From Chloroflexi bacterium HGW-Chloroflexi-2 (GTDB lineage: Bacteria; Chloroflexota; Anaerolineae; Anaerolineales; Anaerolineaceae): a stretch of DNA of 64,000 nt. Position 1 is the first letter of the stretch, and each line of letters opens with the position of its first letter. Location of the stretch: assembly GCA_002840735.1 (NCBI GenBank), contig PHBY01000009.1, forward strand, positions 101,699-165,698. The letters run 5' to 3'. Position numbers and translations under genes: made by a program. Under the pieces are notes generated by a model. That model was not told the DNA's origin. It worked only from the letters and a program-made list of their open reading frames with translations, and made no database searches. This document shows positions 16,647-29,556 of this stretch, one piece after another.

Positions 16647-16662
16647 TGGCATATAACTTGCA
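16647..16662 (+). promoter_or_regulatory. Predicted sigma-54 (-24/-12) promoter upstream of rpoN
   Basis: TGGCATATAACTTGCA; GG and GC dinucleotides 12 nt apart, matching TGGCAY-N-TTGCA/T; identical 16-mer at 21238. Confidence 0.85.
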
Positions 16663-16705: not shown

Positions 16706-18103
16706 ATGTTCCAATATCAATATCAGGTACATAAACCAATAACCACAGCGCACCTTGCGCAAACCATGACATTATTATCTCTCTCGGCATTTGAACTCAA
16801 ACAGCAGATCGATTCTGAGTTAGCGTCGAATCCAGCCCTGGAGATCATTGAAGAGAGACGATGTCCTCATTGCAAGCGGGTATTACCCGATAATGGTGCC
16901 TGCCCTATTTGTTCACGTCCAATGAACACTGATGTTGATGAGCCGATTGTTTATGTTTCTCCAATGGAAGACTTTATTCCCAGATCAGATTATGATGATT
17001 CTGATTATTCTGAGGAACCATTCTCTCCGGTAACGGATGACTTAACCAGCTATGTGATCAAACAAATCGCGCCGGAATTATCCAAAGATCAACAATTGAT
17101 TGCTGTTCATTTGTTAACAAATCTGGATGATGATGGATTTCTGAGCGTCAATTTGATGGATGTAGCTAGATATTTCCATGTGCCGATTTCAACAATCGAA
17201 GAAGTGCAAAAGATTATCCAATTAGCGGATCCTATTGGTGTGGGTTCAGTCAATCCACAACAGGCGTTATTGGTTCAATTAGAAGTATTATCAGATTCAA
17301 TTACCATTCCTGAATATGCATATGAAATCATCAAAGATTACATGGAATTGTTAAGTAAAAGACAACACCCAGAGATAGCCAAGAGACTAAAAATCAGTGT
17401 CCAAAGAGTGGAAAAAATCGTTGAATTTATCAGTGATAATTTAAATCCATTTCCTGCCCGGTCACATTGGGGTTCTGTTCGTAATCCATCTTCTCCTGAT
17501 ACAAATGTGTACCATAGACCCGATGTTTTAATTTCATTTGCGAATGATGACCAAAAATTGCAATTAATTGTAGAAATTGTAATGCCATACTCTGGTACGC
17601 TTCAAGTGAGCCCACTTTATAAACAAACCATCAAAGAAACCGATGCTGAATTAAAAGATGCCATGAAAGGCGATCTGGAAAAAGCATCCTTATTCGTGAA
17701 ATGCTTACAACAAAGAAATCACACGATGCAGAGATTGATGCATGAATTGGTGATGATTCAAAAATCATACCTTACAAAGGGTGAAAAATACTTAAAACCG
17801 ATTACACGAGCAAGTTTGGCAGAAAAACTTGAAGTTCATGAATCAACGATTTCTCGTGCCGTTTCTGGAAAGTCCGTTCAGCTTCCTAACAAGAAAATTG
17901 TCCCATTAGCCGCTTTCTTTGATCGAAGTCTTTCTGCAAGGACAATTTTACGGGAAATTGTTTCTTCAGAATCCAAACCCCTCAGTGATACTGAGATCCA
18001 GAAAAAATTAGACGAAAGAGGTATTCAGGTAGCAAGAAGAACAGTCGCAAAATATCGAGCTATGGAAGGAATTCTTCCAGCACATTTAAGGCAGGCGCTA
18101 TAA
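16706..18103 (+). CDS. rpoN: RNA polymerase sigma-54 factor with inserted zinc ribbon
   Basis: Region I glutamine/leucine-rich (AHLAQTMTLLSLSAFELKQQID), core-binding domain, RpoN box ARRTVAKYR; C53-x2-C56-x9-C66-x2-C69 in the linker. Confidence 0.95.
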   Translation: MFQYQYQVHKPITTAHLAQTMTLLSLSAFELKQQIDSELASNPALEIIEERRCPHCKRVLPDNGACPICSRPMNTDVDEPIVYVSPMEDFIPRSDYDDSDYSEEPFSPVTDDLTSYVIKQIAPELSKDQQLIAVHLLTNLDDDGFLSVNLMDVARYFHVPISTIEEVQKIIQLADPIGVGSVNPQQALLVQLEVLSDSITIPEYAYEIIKDYMELLSKRQHPEIAKRLKISVQRVEKIVEFISDNLNPFPARSHWGSVRNPSSPDTNVYHRPDVLISFANDDQKLQLIVEIVMPYSGTLQVSPLYKQTIKETDAELKDAMKGDLEKASLFVKCLQQRNHTMQRLMHELVMIQKSYLTKGEKYLKPITRASLAEKLEVHESTISRAVSGKSVQLPNKKIVPLAAFFDRSLSARTILREIVSSESKPLSDTEIQKKLDERGIQVARRTVAKYRAMEGILPAHLRQAL

Positions 18104-18107
18104 ATTA

Positions 18108-20060
18108 ATGAATTCTGAAAAACCAAATTGGTTCAGGGAAGTTATATTAGGGAAAGCACAGGATGAAAGTGCTTTGATATATAAGAATTTGTTAAATGTG
18201 ATCCAGGATCCAGCGATTTTTATTGATATACCTCGCAAAGAAATCCTCAGTTTTAATGTAAATTTTCAAAAATTAACTTCATATTCTCCTTCAGAATTAT
18301 CTGATTTACCGGTTGATTTGTTATTTAATTTGGATGGAATCCAAAATTCCTTTTTTAATGAGCCATTTACGTTTGAGATAATCAAACGAAACAAGCAAAC
18401 CGTTGATGGATTTGCATGGAAATATGGGATTGACGAAAAAAACTCAAAATGCGTGATTGTATTTAACGAAGAGCAAGAATTTGTTGAGAAGCAAAAAGCC
18501 TGGCAAGATCAACTTTTCCTGACAATGCAACAATTATTGAGGTTGATTGAAGATGATGATTTGATGGATGCTCTGCATAAAGCAGTGAAAATAATTGAAA
18601 ACTTCTTTGAGACACCCCATGTAACCATTTATCAGGTTGATAGTAATATTCCCGAATTAACACGAATACCGGGTGATACCGATAGCGATTTGCTTCCGTT
18701 TACATTGCCGTCCAGTGATATTCGACTGGATCAAAAAACGACAATCTGGACAGCAGGCCATCGGGTAATGACCGAGTTACATAAAATTGCACGAATCAGT
18801 AACTTATCCTATCTCGGTACTTCTGCTCTGGGTCCGGGAAAAAGTGCATCTGCATTATTGGTTGTGGGGCAGCAAAAAAAACAACCACCAAAAAATTTAC
18901 ACTCAATCCTGGAAATGTTTTCTGCAGCCATTTCATCCATACTGCAATATTTCATTCTGGTGGATGCTTTGCGATCAAAAATTGACAGTCAGGATTGGAT
19001 GATCAGAGTAAATAATGAAATCCTTGATCATGTCCAGGATGGAATTATCATACTGAAACCTGATTTGAAAATCTGGATGATTAATCCAAGCGCTGAGATT
19101 CTGCTAGGTTATCAATCGCGTGAAGTATCAGAACAAACCATTGATAACATACTGATAGGTCCAGACAACTTTTTTCCATTATTAGAATCTGCCAAAAACG
19201 ATTTTGGTATTCATCGACTTGGGATTGTTTACATTCACAACAGAAATGGCGATTCAGTTCCTGTCGATGCCAGAATTGTACCGGTTACTCAAAACAACAC
19301 CTTATTATCGATCATTATTTATTTGCGCGATGTAAGTGAAAATGAAGAAATAAAAACACGCGCACAACAATTAGAACACAGGGCAGTTTTAGGCGAATTT
19401 ACCGCAGTTTTTGCGCATGAGGTTCGCAACCCCATTAATAATATTTCCATGGGACTCCAGATCCTTTCCAGGAGTTTCAATGAAGACCAAAAAAATAAAG
19501 ATATGGTGGATCGTATGATCCATGATTGCGATCGACTAACACATCAGATGGAAGCTGTTCTAGCATATTCAAAACCATTTGACGCAAAATTTGAATCGGT
19601 TGATATTGCGATTCTATTACAGAGGATTTTGGATCGCTGGAAACCCAGAATGGCGAGAGTTGGAGTTCAGGAATTTTTTCAAAAATCAGATGATTTACCC
19701 ATGATCTCTGCCGACCCAAGATTGTTGGAACAAGTTTTTACGAATTTGATCGGGAATGCTGTTGAAGCCATGGCTGCTAGTGAGAAAGGAACTCTGGCTG
19801 TTCACATTGACATTTCCAGAACAATCTCGAATTACCCGCAAATTGAAGTGAAAATCATTGATAGTGGACCCGGCATTCCTGAGGAAGTTCGTGGACATGT
19901 TTTTGAGCCATTTGTTACAACCAAAAAAACCGGAACCGGTTTAGGTTTAGCGATCAGTAAACGTATCATGACTGCTCATCGTGGTAATATTACGGTTGAG
20001 TCATATCCAGGTGGAGGAACAGTGTTTGCTGTTTATTTACCGATCAAACAAGGAGAATAA
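18108..20060 (+). CDS. Cytoplasmic PAS/GAF sensor histidine kinase (NtrB-like)
   Basis: PAS-GAF-PAS-HisKA-HATPase order; AVFAHEVRNPINNISMGLQ H-box, GTGLGLAISKRI G-box; no obvious TM segment; starts 4 nt after rpoN stop. Confidence 0.92.
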   Translation: MNSEKPNWFREVILGKAQDESALIYKNLLNVIQDPAIFIDIPRKEILSFNVNFQKLTSYSPSELSDLPVDLLFNLDGIQNSFFNEPFTFEIIKRNKQTVDGFAWKYGIDEKNSKCVIVFNEEQEFVEKQKAWQDQLFLTMQQLLRLIEDDDLMDALHKAVKIIENFFETPHVTIYQVDSNIPELTRIPGDTDSDLLPFTLPSSDIRLDQKTTIWTAGHRVMTELHKIARISNLSYLGTSALGPGKSASALLVVGQQKKQPPKNLHSILEMFSAAISSILQYFILVDALRSKIDSQDWMIRVNNEILDHVQDGIIILKPDLKIWMINPSAEILLGYQSREVSEQTIDNILIGPDNFFPLLESAKNDFGIHRLGIVYIHNRNGDSVPVDARIVPVTQNNTLLSIIIYLRDVSENEEIKTRAQQLEHRAVLGEFTAVFAHEVRNPINNISMGLQILSRSFNEDQKNKDMVDRMIHDCDRLTHQMEAVLAYSKPFDAKFESVDIAILLQRILDRWKPRMARVGVQEFFQKSDDLPMISADPRLLEQVFTNLIGNAVEAMAASEKGTLAVHIDISRTISNYPQIEVKIIDSGPGIPEEVRGHVFEPFVTTKKTGTGLGLAISKRIMTAHRGNITVESYPGGGTVFAVYLPIKQGE

Positions 20061-20065
20061 ATCAC

Positions 20066-21229
20066 ATGGGTTATACCGTCTTGGTAGTGGATGATGAAGA
20101 GAATGCAAGATCAAACCTGGAAGCATTTTTAACTCCCTTAGGATACGAAGTGGTTGGAGTGGGTACTCTTTCGGAAGCACGCACCGAGATTCAGAAAGGC
20201 AATTGTGATGTTGTGCTTTTAGATGTTCAATTGCCAGATGGCTTTGGTCCAAATTTGTTATATGAAACATTAAATATGCAACTGAGACCTCCCATGATAT
20301 TGATAACAGGTTTTCCGGATATAGAAATAGCTGTTGAAGCGATGCGAAATGGTGCGCACGATTTCTTAATAAAACCCATCAAATTGGATCGACTTGAGCT
20401 TTCCATCCAAAGGGCTCTGGAAATTGTCAGAATGCGAAGAGAATTGGCATTGTTCCAAAACACTCAAAAGAATAGTGTTCAGTTTGTGGCAGGAGACAAT
20501 CCAAAGATTAAACATGTTCTGGGTCAGGCTGAAAGGGCAGCGTCTATGTCAGTCTCTGTGTTAATTACAGGAGAAACTGGGGTGGGGAAAGACGTTTTGG
20601 CAAATTACATTCATAGTGTTGGTCCGCGATCACATAAAATGTTTGTTGCAATTAACTGTGCTGCTATTCAGAGTACCATGCTTGAGTCCGAATTATTCGG
20701 TCACGAATCTGGCGCTTTTACGGGTGCTGATAAACGAAAACACGGACTTATGGAAACAGCCGATGAGGGTGTGCTGTTTCTGGATGAAATTTCCTCCATG
20801 CCTTTGGATATGCAAGCTAAATTGTTGCGTGCCCTGGAATCAAAAGCATTTCGAAGAGTTGGTGGTAATAACTTGATTAATGTTGATGTTCAGGTATTAG
20901 CAGCATCTAACCGTAATCTTAATCAAATGATTGAGAACAATGAATTTCGTTCGGACTTATATTATCGATTACGGGTGGTAGATTTGCATATTCCACCGTT
21001 GCGAGAACGAAAAGAAGATATTCCAGAATTGGTTGGTTTCTTCATACGACAAAAGAATTCAAAAATGGGTGTAAATATAGTTGATATCACCCCACACGCC
21101 ATGGAAAAATTAATGGCTTATAACTGGCCAGGAAATATTCGTGAATTAAGCAATGCAATTGAAAGTGCGATGTTGTTTTGTGATACAGGTGTAATTGAAG
21201 TGTCAAATTTGCCCCTGAACCTGCAATAA
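20066..21229 (+). CDS. NtrC-type sigma-54-dependent response regulator/activator lacking C-terminal HTH
   Basis: Receiver (LLDVQLPDG), Walker A GETGVGKD, GAFTGA loop, Walker B GVLFLDE; ends at 387 aa right after the AAA+ lid, without a Fis-type HTH. Confidence 0.94.
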   Translation: MGYTVLVVDDEENARSNLEAFLTPLGYEVVGVGTLSEARTEIQKGNCDVVLLDVQLPDGFGPNLLYETLNMQLRPPMILITGFPDIEIAVEAMRNGAHDFLIKPIKLDRLELSIQRALEIVRMRRELALFQNTQKNSVQFVAGDNPKIKHVLGQAERAASMSVSVLITGETGVGKDVLANYIHSVGPRSHKMFVAINCAAIQSTMLESELFGHESGAFTGADKRKHGLMETADEGVLFLDEISSMPLDMQAKLLRALESKAFRRVGGNNLINVDVQVLAASNRNLNQMIENNEFRSDLYYRLRVVDLHIPPLRERKEDIPELVGFFIRQKNSKMGVNIVDITPHAMEKLMAYNWPGNIRELSNAIESAMLFCDTGVIEVSNLPLNLQ

Positions 21230-21237
21230 ATCACTGT

Positions 21238-21253
21238 TGGCATATAACTTGCA
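21238..21253 (+). promoter_or_regulatory. Predicted sigma-54 (-24/-12) promoter of the TPR-protease operon
   Basis: TGGCATATAACTTGCA, identical to the element upstream of rpoN; 35 nt before the next ORF start. Confidence 0.87.
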
Positions 21254-21288: not shown

Positions 21289-21600
21289 ATGATAAAAGAG
21301 GATTTAATCACATTGCTAACACTCGTTTTTATGGGATTAGGATTAATTACATTCATAACCGGTTTCATCGTTTTATTAACCCGTGTCTTAGGTAAGGGCA
21401 TTTCCCAAATTGCCAAAGAAACCCAAAAAGTTGTTCAAAAAGGAATAACTGAAGAAATTGCTTCCATCATAGGAAATGCATCAGTCCTTATAGATTCTTT
21501 AAATCAGATGGTGACCACCGCTGCTGGTATTGGTGTATTTCTGATGATCTTAGGTGTTTTATTGATGGCTGGATCCTTCGCATTATTCTTACGATTCTAG
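21289..21600 (+). CDS. Small two-TM membrane protein, unknown function
   Basis: 103 aa; TM-like segments at both ends flanking an amphipathic helix-rich centre; GGAGG SD. Confidence 0.75.
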   Translation: MIKEDLITLLTLVFMGLGLITFITGFIVLLTRVLGKGISQIAKETQKVVQKGITEEIASIIGNASVLIDSLNQMVTTAAGIGVFLMILGVLLMAGSFALFLRF

Positions 21601-26984: not shown

Positions 26985-29498
26985 ATGGAATTTTCATACC
27001 CAAAACATGACGAAAAAATCAACCGTGGAACAGTAATTCAACTTATTGTTTCGGCACTTCAAAACAAAAAATTTGTTTTTGGGCGGCAATTAGCGCAAAA
27101 ATGGTTGTCTTATTATCCTGGTGATCTCACCGTCCAGTATTATTTAGCCTTGTTTTATCAAAAAGAGAATCAGCTTGAATTAGCAGCCGATGTAACCAGA
27201 AAAATTATTGAGACCGATCCCGAATATTTGTCGGCTCATGAGCTTTTTGTAACCTTACCTATTGCGGATGAAGAAAAAGATCTCTCATCGGCTTGTATTC
27301 ATGTTTTGGGTGGAGTCACCAAAAATAAAAGTGCCTTACCTGCCTGGGGTCCTGCTTTGCGCGTTGTAAAGAAATCGATTGGCAAAGAAAAATTTGATAA
27401 CGCCGGTGATTTAATGGTGAGGATATTATCATTGAAATTAGATAATCCAATCATCAATTTGTTTCACCTAAAATCTATATATTTCCAGAAGGATGCTAAT
27501 TCAGTTAGAAATTTAGCAGAGATTTATCACAACAAATGGCCGAACACTTTATTTTATAAGTTGATCCTGGCTGAACAATTACTGGAAAGTGGTGAAGAAG
27601 AAGAAGCAGTAAATTTACTACATGATTGTGTGGCGAAAGATTCATCCGGTCAAATTGCGCGTAGATTGTGGGGAGACCAACATGTTTTCTTGCCATTATG
27701 GCCTGATGAGCTGAGTGTTCGATTTGACTTTCAGGTTCCTGGAGAGGTTGCCTCTGACATGGGATGGAACCGTTTGCCAGAAGGTAAATTTGAAGAATCG
27801 AATTATGTTTATGGTGATCAGACAGAAGAACCATCGAAAAGTTTTTCCGGTGAACCACGCAGCAAAGCGTTTATGGAAGCTGAAAAAGAATTTCAGCGGA
27901 TTGCAAAATCGATTAAGAAGGATTTTAGTGGGAAATTAGATGGTCGCTTTCCAGTCTATGTAATCATGACAACCAAAACTGGAATGATCCAGCAGTATGG
28001 TCAACAGACATATAACGTGATCACCCAATCCATGTCACAGATCAATCAAGTTCTACAGAAAAAATCCGGATGGGATAGTTTAATTTTCATACCTGATGAC
28101 TCAAAAACACAACAAAAGTTAAACCTTGCTCCGATTACAGTAATTGATCCATGGAAAATCAAATTAGCAATCCATGATTTGGATAAAATGCTGGCCAAAA
28201 GAGGTGAGAGAATTGGCGCAATGTTAATTGTTGGAGGTAATGAGGTAGTGCCATTCCACCGCTTACCAAATCCAACAGATGATGTTGATGACGAAATTTA
28301 TTCTGATAATCCATATGGTAGTTTGGATAATAACTATTTTGTCACCAGTTGGCCATTAGGTCGAGTTATTGGTGAAAAAGGACAGGACGCAGGTTTACTC
28401 ATTCAACAGTTACGACAAATCGTAAAATTTCACATGCAGCCGAAATCAGTCAACAAAGTATGGGAACGGATTGTCAGGTCCTTCACCAACATCTTTACCT
28501 ATAAATATTTATCAAGTTTCGGATATTCTGCATCCGTTTGGAAGAGATCATCAACGACCGTTTATAAAGCTTTAGGAGAATCCAAATCCTTATATATTTC
28601 TCCAAACGGCAAAAAACAGTCTTTGACAAAACAAGATTTAGTGTCTGTTGACTTTGGTTATTTTAACCTGCATGGTTTAGTTGATCGTCCTGAATGGTAT
28701 GGGCAAAGAGATTATTTAGATCCACCTGGAAATGATTATCCTGTGGCTTTATCACCAGATGATTTGATTATTAATGGTAAAGCACCAAAAGTAGTTCTTA
28801 CGGAAGCCTGTTATGGCGGTCATGTTTTTGGAAAGAATGAAAACGAATCGATCGCCCTAAAATATTTATCACTTGGCACCAATGTCGTAATTGGCTCAAC
28901 CAGCACGTCCTATGGTTCGGTTGCACCACCACTGATTGCAGCAGATTTATTTGCTCAACTATTCTGGCAACATATCCGCGAAGGTTACCTGGTTGGCGAG
29001 TCGTTTCAAAGGGCTAAAATCTCCTTTGTTCAGGAAATGATGAATCGTCAGGGGTATCTGGATGGCGAAGATCAGAAGACTTTGATCCAGTTTGTTTATT
29101 ACGGTGATCCATTCTTTATTTATGAAGGCAAAGAAATCCAGATTAAACGTGTCAATTTAATTGATCGACCGGATAAAATCAGGACAATCTCGGATCATAA
29201 AAATGGAGGATCAAGCATGGATATTCCTGAAGAGACGATGCAACACGTAAAATCCACTTTAAAATCATATTTACCTGGTATTGATAATGCTGATGTAAAA
29301 ATGAGTCGACTACAAATTGGTTCATCGAGAACTGTAAGCGCTGATGGTCAGAAACAATCCAAACCAAAAGTGTTAAGTGATAAATTTATGGTTACTGTGC
29401 GGAATCCCATTCAGATTAATCAGAACCGGTATTATCAAATAGCTCGATTAACATTCGACAAAAAAGGCAGCGTTATCAAAGTGGCGATGTCCAGGTAA
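26985..29498 (+). CDS. TPR-containing caspase-fold (clan CD; C25/CHAT-like) predicted cysteine protease
   Basis: N-terminal TPR-like helices; YFNLHG (His563) and VVLTEACYGG (Cys609) followed by GTNVVIGSTSTSYGS; no signal peptide; SD AGGAG 8 nt after the TPR gene stop. Confidence 0.8.
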   Translation: MEFSYPKHDEKINRGTVIQLIVSALQNKKFVFGRQLAQKWLSYYPGDLTVQYYLALFYQKENQLELAADVTRKIIETDPEYLSAHELFVTLPIADEEKDLSSACIHVLGGVTKNKSALPAWGPALRVVKKSIGKEKFDNAGDLMVRILSLKLDNPIINLFHLKSIYFQKDANSVRNLAEIYHNKWPNTLFYKLILAEQLLESGEEEEAVNLLHDCVAKDSSGQIARRLWGDQHVFLPLWPDELSVRFDFQVPGEVASDMGWNRLPEGKFEESNYVYGDQTEEPSKSFSGEPRSKAFMEAEKEFQRIAKSIKKDFSGKLDGRFPVYVIMTTKTGMIQQYGQQTYNVITQSMSQINQVLQKKSGWDSLIFIPDDSKTQQKLNLAPITVIDPWKIKLAIHDLDKMLAKRGERIGAMLIVGGNEVVPFHRLPNPTDDVDDEIYSDNPYGSLDNNYFVTSWPLGRVIGEKGQDAGLLIQQLRQIVKFHMQPKSVNKVWERIVRSFTNIFTYKYLSSFGYSASVWKRSSTTVYKALGESKSLYISPNGKKQSLTKQDLVSVDFGYFNLHGLVDRPEWYGQRDYLDPPGNDYPVALSPDDLIINGKAPKVVLTEACYGGHVFGKNENESIALKYLSLGTNVVIGSTSTSYGSVAPPLIAADLFAQLFWQHIREGYLVGESFQRAKISFVQEMMNRQGYLDGEDQKTLIQFVYYGDPFFIYEGKEIQIKRVNLIDRPDKIRTISDHKNGGSSMDIPEETMQHVKSTLKSYLPGIDNADVKMSRLQIGSSRTVSADGQKQSKPKVLSDKFMVTVRNPIQINQNRYYQIARLTFDKKGSVIKVAMSR

Positions 29499-29530
29499 TA
29501 TTGTCACTGAAAGTTTGATCGCTTATAATC

Positions 29531-29556
29531 ATGGGCAAATCGTTTTGCCCATTTTT
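29531..29556 (+). terminator. Intrinsic terminator of the TPR-protease operon
   Basis: ATGGGCAAA-tcgt-TTTGCCCAT 9-bp stem followed by TTTTT. Confidence 0.85.

Follow-up and report, generated by a model that had tools for sequence, protein, structure and literature searches.

What is a large cysteine protease of apparent caspase type doing inside a bacterial cell, encoded directly behind a giant tetratricopeptide repeat (TPR) protein? The gene that raises this question lies in a 64,000-nt stretch of DNA from Chloroflexi bacterium HGW-Chloroflexi-2 (hereafter the window, to whose positions all coordinates refer), and its reading frame begins 8 nt past the stop codon of the TPR gene, as the original prediction for this locus had stated (Table 1). 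Most of what is known of C25 proteases concerns enzymes that are secreted, the gingipains among them. The reading that we favor, with a probability of about 0.55, is that this cytoplasmic C25 protease is controlled by sigma-54, forms one functional unit with a two-TM protein and the giant TPR scaffold, and works in cell division.

Table 1. Features of the locus, in window coordinates (aa, amino acids; TM, transmembrane)
Feature	Position	Strand	Basis
Sigma-54 promoter of rpoN, 16-mer identical to that at 21238	16647..16662	+	consensus match
RpoN, sigma-54	16706..18103	+	Sigma54_DBD 1e-31, Sigma54_CBD 3.9e-31
PAS histidine kinase	18108..20060	+	Pfam
NtrC-type REC-AAA+ sigma-54 activator without HTH domain	20066..21229	+	Pfam; own-genome search
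Sigma-54 -24/-12 promoter of the three-gene unit, TGGCATATAACTTGCA	21238..21253	+	near-consensus match
Small two-TM membrane protein, 103 aa, matching no known family	21289..21600	+	two hydrophobic segments; homologues 5' of TPR gene
Giant TPR protein, 1784 aa, no TM segment	21622..26976	+	Pfam TPR; homologue directly 5' of C25 gene in nearly all class loci
C25-family cysteine protease (predicted), 837 aa	26985..29498	+	ORF; 24/31 homologous cores match PF01364; hhalign to canonical C25 E=1.9e-13
N-terminal TPR-like helices, about aa 13-230	27021..27674	+	weak TPR matches; TPR_16 2.7e-13 in homologue L045
C25 catalytic region, about aa 322-712	27948..29120	+	conserved block in homologue alignment
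His563 codon, predicted catalytic	28671..28673	+	38/39 kept; aligned to canonical C25 His
Cys609 codon, predicted nucleophile	28809..28811	+	38/39 kept; aligned to canonical C25 Cys
Conserved small C-terminal region, aa 763-837, family unassigned	29271..29495	+	conserved L763, P764, T823, G828, K832, S836
Terminator-like hairpin ending the unit, just 5' of alaS	29531..29552	+	

Family assignment and predicted catalytic pair

The original prediction had placed the protein in clan CD, among C25/CHAT/C14-like enzymes, on the basis of an NLHG and an EACYGG motif whose His563 and Cys609 were proposed as a catalytic dyad. Both motifs, the 46-residue spacing from H563 to C609 and the following GSTSTSYGS strand are all present in the reading frame, and the assignment can be narrowed to C25. 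Specifically, Peptidase_C25 (PF01364) is matched by 24 of the 31 homologues in our catalytic-core set, several of them above the cut-off and the best at 5.8e-18, while the window protein itself gives no Pfam C25 match and only weak TPR matches in Pfam and NCBIfam. Profile–profile alignment (hhalign) against canonical C25, represented by C25 proteins of the window's genome and its relatives, returned a probability of 98% and matched the columns of the His and of the Cys: YFNLHG falls on the canonical GHG and TEACYG on the canonical Cys motif, and SDxxY...GRLP and GDP motifs are common to both groups. Three canonical C25 genes of the window's genome (194-258 bits) sit elsewhere.

At the level of sequence homology, then, the window protein is a cytoplasmic C25 protein of clan CD, for which the profile match predicts a caspase-like fold. 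When the PDB was searched by sequence, the single protein matched TPR chains only, and the family profile gave only sub-threshold gingipain matches (E about 0.8); an AlphaFold model of residues 289-837, built from an alignment of four closely related sequences (three relatives), had a pLDDT of 34. The other clan CD families named in the original prediction fit less well. CHAT (PF12770) has no match in the whole genome and one weak match among the 31 family members (E=0.035), and a metacaspase reading is likewise poorer than C25. The predicted cytoplasmic location held up, as we found no signal peptide or membrane segment in the protein and no 19-residue hydrophobic segment; a secreted, gingipain-type C25 enzyme was rejected on this ground. 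The TPR-like N-terminus that had also been proposed is weak in the window protein (TPR_14, E=9e-4, under the Pfam cut-off), clear in one homologue (L045) and missing from several others. The small C-terminal region is probably beta-rich.

With respect to the predicted dyad, 42 of the 397 genomes searched in the class (Anaerolineae throughout this text) carry a relative of the C25 protein, and 39 homologues entered the class alignment. Position 563 is His and position 609 is Cys in all of these except a single homologue, L054, which has Arg and Gly, respectively. In the phylum's other classes, 18 of 19 further homologues keep the His and 15 keep the Cys. We infer that the protein is proteolytically active.

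Several more distant or isolated relatives were encountered. One genome (G177, L069) has a distant relative without TPR or TM genes, and the copy in G325 lies on a 4.9-kb contig that may be contamination. Rhizobium plasmids encode C25 proteins of about 520 aa without TPR neighbors (L161:9980-11548 in NZ_CP088106.1; L162:9989-11557) that are about 26% identical to the core, and plasmid pTA1_2 carries a separate 'caspase family protein' about 4 kb from its C25 gene.

A three-gene unit and its putative sigma-54 promoters

The linkage of TPR and C25 genes is kept in nearly all class loci as part of a longer arrangement, in which a two-TM gene is followed by a giant TPR gene (about 1700-2600 aa) and then by the C25 gene. 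The same order is found in families of other Chloroflexota classes, including Chloroflexia-like families, and the separate giant TPR gene is a steadier partner of C25 than the TPR-like N-terminus of the C25 protein itself. Every genome of the window's family sampled in the class search has the C25 gene, with similar neighbors. One closed genome of that family (G254, L048) has the TM and C25 genes but lacks both the intervening TPR gene and a sigma-54 site. Because relatives at 84-96% identity, from Anaerolineaceae and Chloroflexi MAGs, show an identical gene order, an assembly artefact does not explain the arrangement. Moreover, the hairpin 3' of the C25 gene and a sigma-70-like promoter 5' of alaS make the unit a plausible single transcript. 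In the alaS region (29501-29552), promoter and hairpin both appear to precede the true start, and the listed start of that reading frame at 29531 is probably too early.

The unit is preceded, in order, by rpoN, a PAS histidine kinase and an HTH-less NtrC-type activator. This activator is the sole clear sigma-54 activator in the genome (E=7e-68); three other matches are weak (E from 8e-8 to 5e-6) and come from reading frames of 826-860 aa. A near-consensus -24/-12 site lies 51 bp ahead of the TM gene in the window, and sites scoring at least 13 of 14.5 were found in 13 of 21 upstream regions of TM genes versus 1 of 173 background genes (p=5e-14, with relatedness ignored). In four further loci a maximum-score site stands ahead of an upstream receiver-domain gene.

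A genome-wide search with the sigma-54 pattern gave 17 sites, compared with 4 for a control pattern. All are consensus matches, and those that fall inside genes, of which there are several, are probably due to chance. The 17 include sites at rpoN, the unit, a second ftsZ, the partner gene of that ftsZ, ftsL and a Tad-like pilus operon, where the names ftsL, rsmH, ftsI and Tad were read from the sequences and the gene order. The ftsL site lies between rsmH and ftsL, with ftsI beyond, in the dcw cluster, the main division cluster of Anaerolineaceae (L250:9688, L254:9220, L253:8874); it recurs as an identical 16-mer in one further genome (G272) and at the corresponding place in another (G203). 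More generally, the sigma-54 sites of the window's genome were found again in related genomes. The original prediction mentioned neither the two-TM gene, rpoN, the kinase and the activator nor the sigma-54 promoters and the association with a second FtsZ. New relative to that reading are the three-gene unit, its regulation by sigma-54 and its connection with a second FtsZ.

A second FtsZ and the case for a role in cell division

An ftsZ gene lies a few genes downstream of C25 in 17 of 39 loci, drawn from ten Anaerolineae families, although the unit is not beside ftsZ in the window's own family. Recurring neighbors, identified from representatives, are FtsZ, MraZ, an N-acetylmuramoyl-L-alanine amidase (Amidase_2), a protein with a weak match to DivIVA, and SpoIID, LysM and LytR-CpsA-Psr (LCP) proteins; several of the loci have mraZ, Amidase_2, DivIVA-like, LCP and LysM genes. 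At least two ftsZ genes are present in 37 of the 42 genomes with the C25 gene versus 43 of the 355 without it (Fisher p=2e-24, relatedness ignored). Since 41 of these 43 genomes belong to two families, f38 and f39, that carry extra copies without a C25 gene, we compared the counts with a phylogeny built from 39 FtsZ sequences. A branch with support 100/99 parts the unit-linked FtsZs from canonical FtsZ. The unlinked second FtsZ of the window's family groups with the unit-linked proteins, whereas the extra copies sampled from f38 and f39 (three genomes) branch with canonical FtsZ. Those three genomes (G035, G036 and G068) have two or three ftsZ genes and no C25 unit, and the tandem copy in one of them (G068 C52) is very divergent.

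In the window's genome the second ftsZ is found at L164:9825-10976 (G000 C12), and divergent second FtsZs are also encoded at L165, L166, L047, L171-L173, L175 and L158. The GTP-binding motif is kept in all but one linked copy. In the T7 loop, the second Asp is lost in many members (NxDFAD becoming NxDFxH, N or S), and the window's genome has NVDFSH. The equivalent change in Escherichia coli FtsZ, D212A, reportedly cuts GTPase activity to 7% (PMC8142252), and the second FtsZ may, judging from its loop, be a slow-GTPase FtsZ. An unassigned family of about 440 aa (L164:8469-9806 and homologues) has no Pfam match and no convincing PDB match. Its gene lies 3' of C25 in many families; in the window's family it stands 5' of the second ftsZ, and in one locus (L065) the protein is fused to a SpoIID domain. 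With this gene at both positions, a single ancestral cluster seems to have come apart into two. In the genomes checked from other classes, complete ones included, the unit goes with one FtsZ in every case but one; the second FtsZ is thus associated with the unit at the level of the class and is not required by it. Bacteria with two ftsZ genes are few and the extra copy lies outside the dcw cluster, according to the available portion of a survey of FtsZ evolution (PMC9871819), a portion that does not mention the three-gene C25 system. No C25 protease in cell division is described in the papers found by a search of largely open-access literature.

Gene order, co-occurrence and shared promoters are what a division role would rest on; of these, gene order and shared promoters suggest co-regulation and do not speak to function. 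In the mechanism that we propose, the histidine kinase and the free-acting, HTH-less activator would switch on sigma-54, and sigma-54 would drive transcription of the unit, of ftsL and of the gene for the divergent second FtsZ. In a complex at the membrane, the TM protein and the TPR scaffold would place and gate the protease at the division site, where it would cleave, to a limited extent, a protein of division or of the envelope. Among several candidate substrates, the second FtsZ is a speculative one; with its GTPase loop altered in many members, its filaments may need another route of removal.

The same data also bear on a possible, if unlikely, alternative, namely that the C25 protease belongs to a sigma-54 surface program (wall remodeling, Tad pilus or secretion quality control) and shares regulation and neighbors with division genes while acting outside division. 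One sigma-54 site (L251:1209) lies ahead of a cpaB-like reading frame followed by Tad-like pilus genes, several neighbors of the unit are wall enzymes, and the unit occurs with one FtsZ in other classes. In a broad survey, sigma-54 was found to control the bacterial exterior, with cell division not an enriched category, so a division regulon would be unusual (PMC3162934). Such a program is harder to reconcile with the co-occurrence of the second FtsZ within the class, with sigma-54 sites before both ftsL and the second ftsZ, and with a C25 protein that is cytoplasmic and not exported.

It is improbable that the protein is a non-catalytic scaffold that acts by binding, its dyad being kept for structure. 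The loss of both residues in L054, and of the Cys in four homologues outside the class, in genes that are still intact would fit this idea. Those four all fall in one family (f96: L090, L092, L093, L098), whose loci have no TPR gene adjoining the C25 gene in the sequence examined, and loss of the Cys thus goes with leaving the three-gene unit; elsewhere the dyad is invariant over very divergent proteins.

Known defense operons pair a caspase-like protease with sensor-like and membrane proteins. In a defense or programmed-death module like Craspase (TPR-CHAT; available text of PMC9729208) or gasdermin operons, a trigger sensed by the TPR protein would lead the protease to kill the cell by cutting the small membrane protein or cell proteins. 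Such a module would account for a caspase-like protease whose neighbors are a two-TM protein and a TPR protein resembling a sensor. It is very improbable given that the protease has no PADLOC match and no relatives in viral contigs or phages (plasmids giving only the distant alphaproteobacterial C25 proteins), that it is present with similar neighbors in all sampled genomes of the window's family, unlike patchy defense islands, and that its regulatory partners are sigma-54 and division genes. The original prediction had offered a regulatory or executioner protease instead of a nutrient enzyme; the conserved operon, sigma-54 control and division neighbors favor its regulatory half, and the findings just listed give the executioner half no support.

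Comparison with known systems

If the division role is correct, sigma-54 would gain a regulon for cell division, for which the broad survey saw no enrichment (PMC3162934). The activator, rpoN, the TM, TPR and C25 genes and the second FtsZ with its partner constitute a testable gene set. In its catalytic region the window protein resembles gingipains and other C25 proteins (PF01364) through profile homology, the aligned His and Cys and the shared motifs. It differs from them in being cytoplasmic, without a signal peptide, in its TPR-like N-terminus and in its conserved operon with giant TPR and TM proteins. On the regulatory side, CtcB/CtcC of Chlamydia likewise uses an NtrC-type sigma-54 activator that lacks a DNA-binding domain, although the regulon is a different one, tied there to late development (PMC7482065). 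Craspase, or TPR-CHAT (Csx29), also combines TPR with a caspase-like protease; it belongs to the CHAT family and is CRISPR-guided, and no CRISPR partner was seen with the window unit.

Separase has a helical-repeat region. It is, moreover, a large clan CD protease that acts at cell division, as described in the available part of one account (PMC4626109), but it is eukaryotic, a single chain and cuts cohesin, and no homology with the window protein beyond the clan was seen. A separase-like organization, in which a sigma-54-timed, membrane-placed TPR scaffold and clan CD protease would time a division step or filament separation in Chloroflexota by cleaving a protein of division, perhaps the second FtsZ with its impaired GTPase, is a tentative extension that we consider distinctly unlikely.

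A parallel to the proposed division role comes from HetF of Anabaena, a CHAT caspase-like member of the cyanobacterial divisome that is located at midcell and binds FtsI, and that likewise brings together a caspase-like protein, TPR and membrane parts and septal division in a filamentous bacterium (available portion of PMC8406250). Unlike the window protein, HetF is of the CHAT and not the C25 family and is a single polypeptide that includes the TPR, TM and protease parts, and that portion of the source describes no link to a second FtsZ or sigma-54. Should our favored reading hold, it would give a caspase-type protease a part in the cell division of bacteria from a large phylum that has been little studied and would stand as a second case beside HetF, drawn from another protease family.
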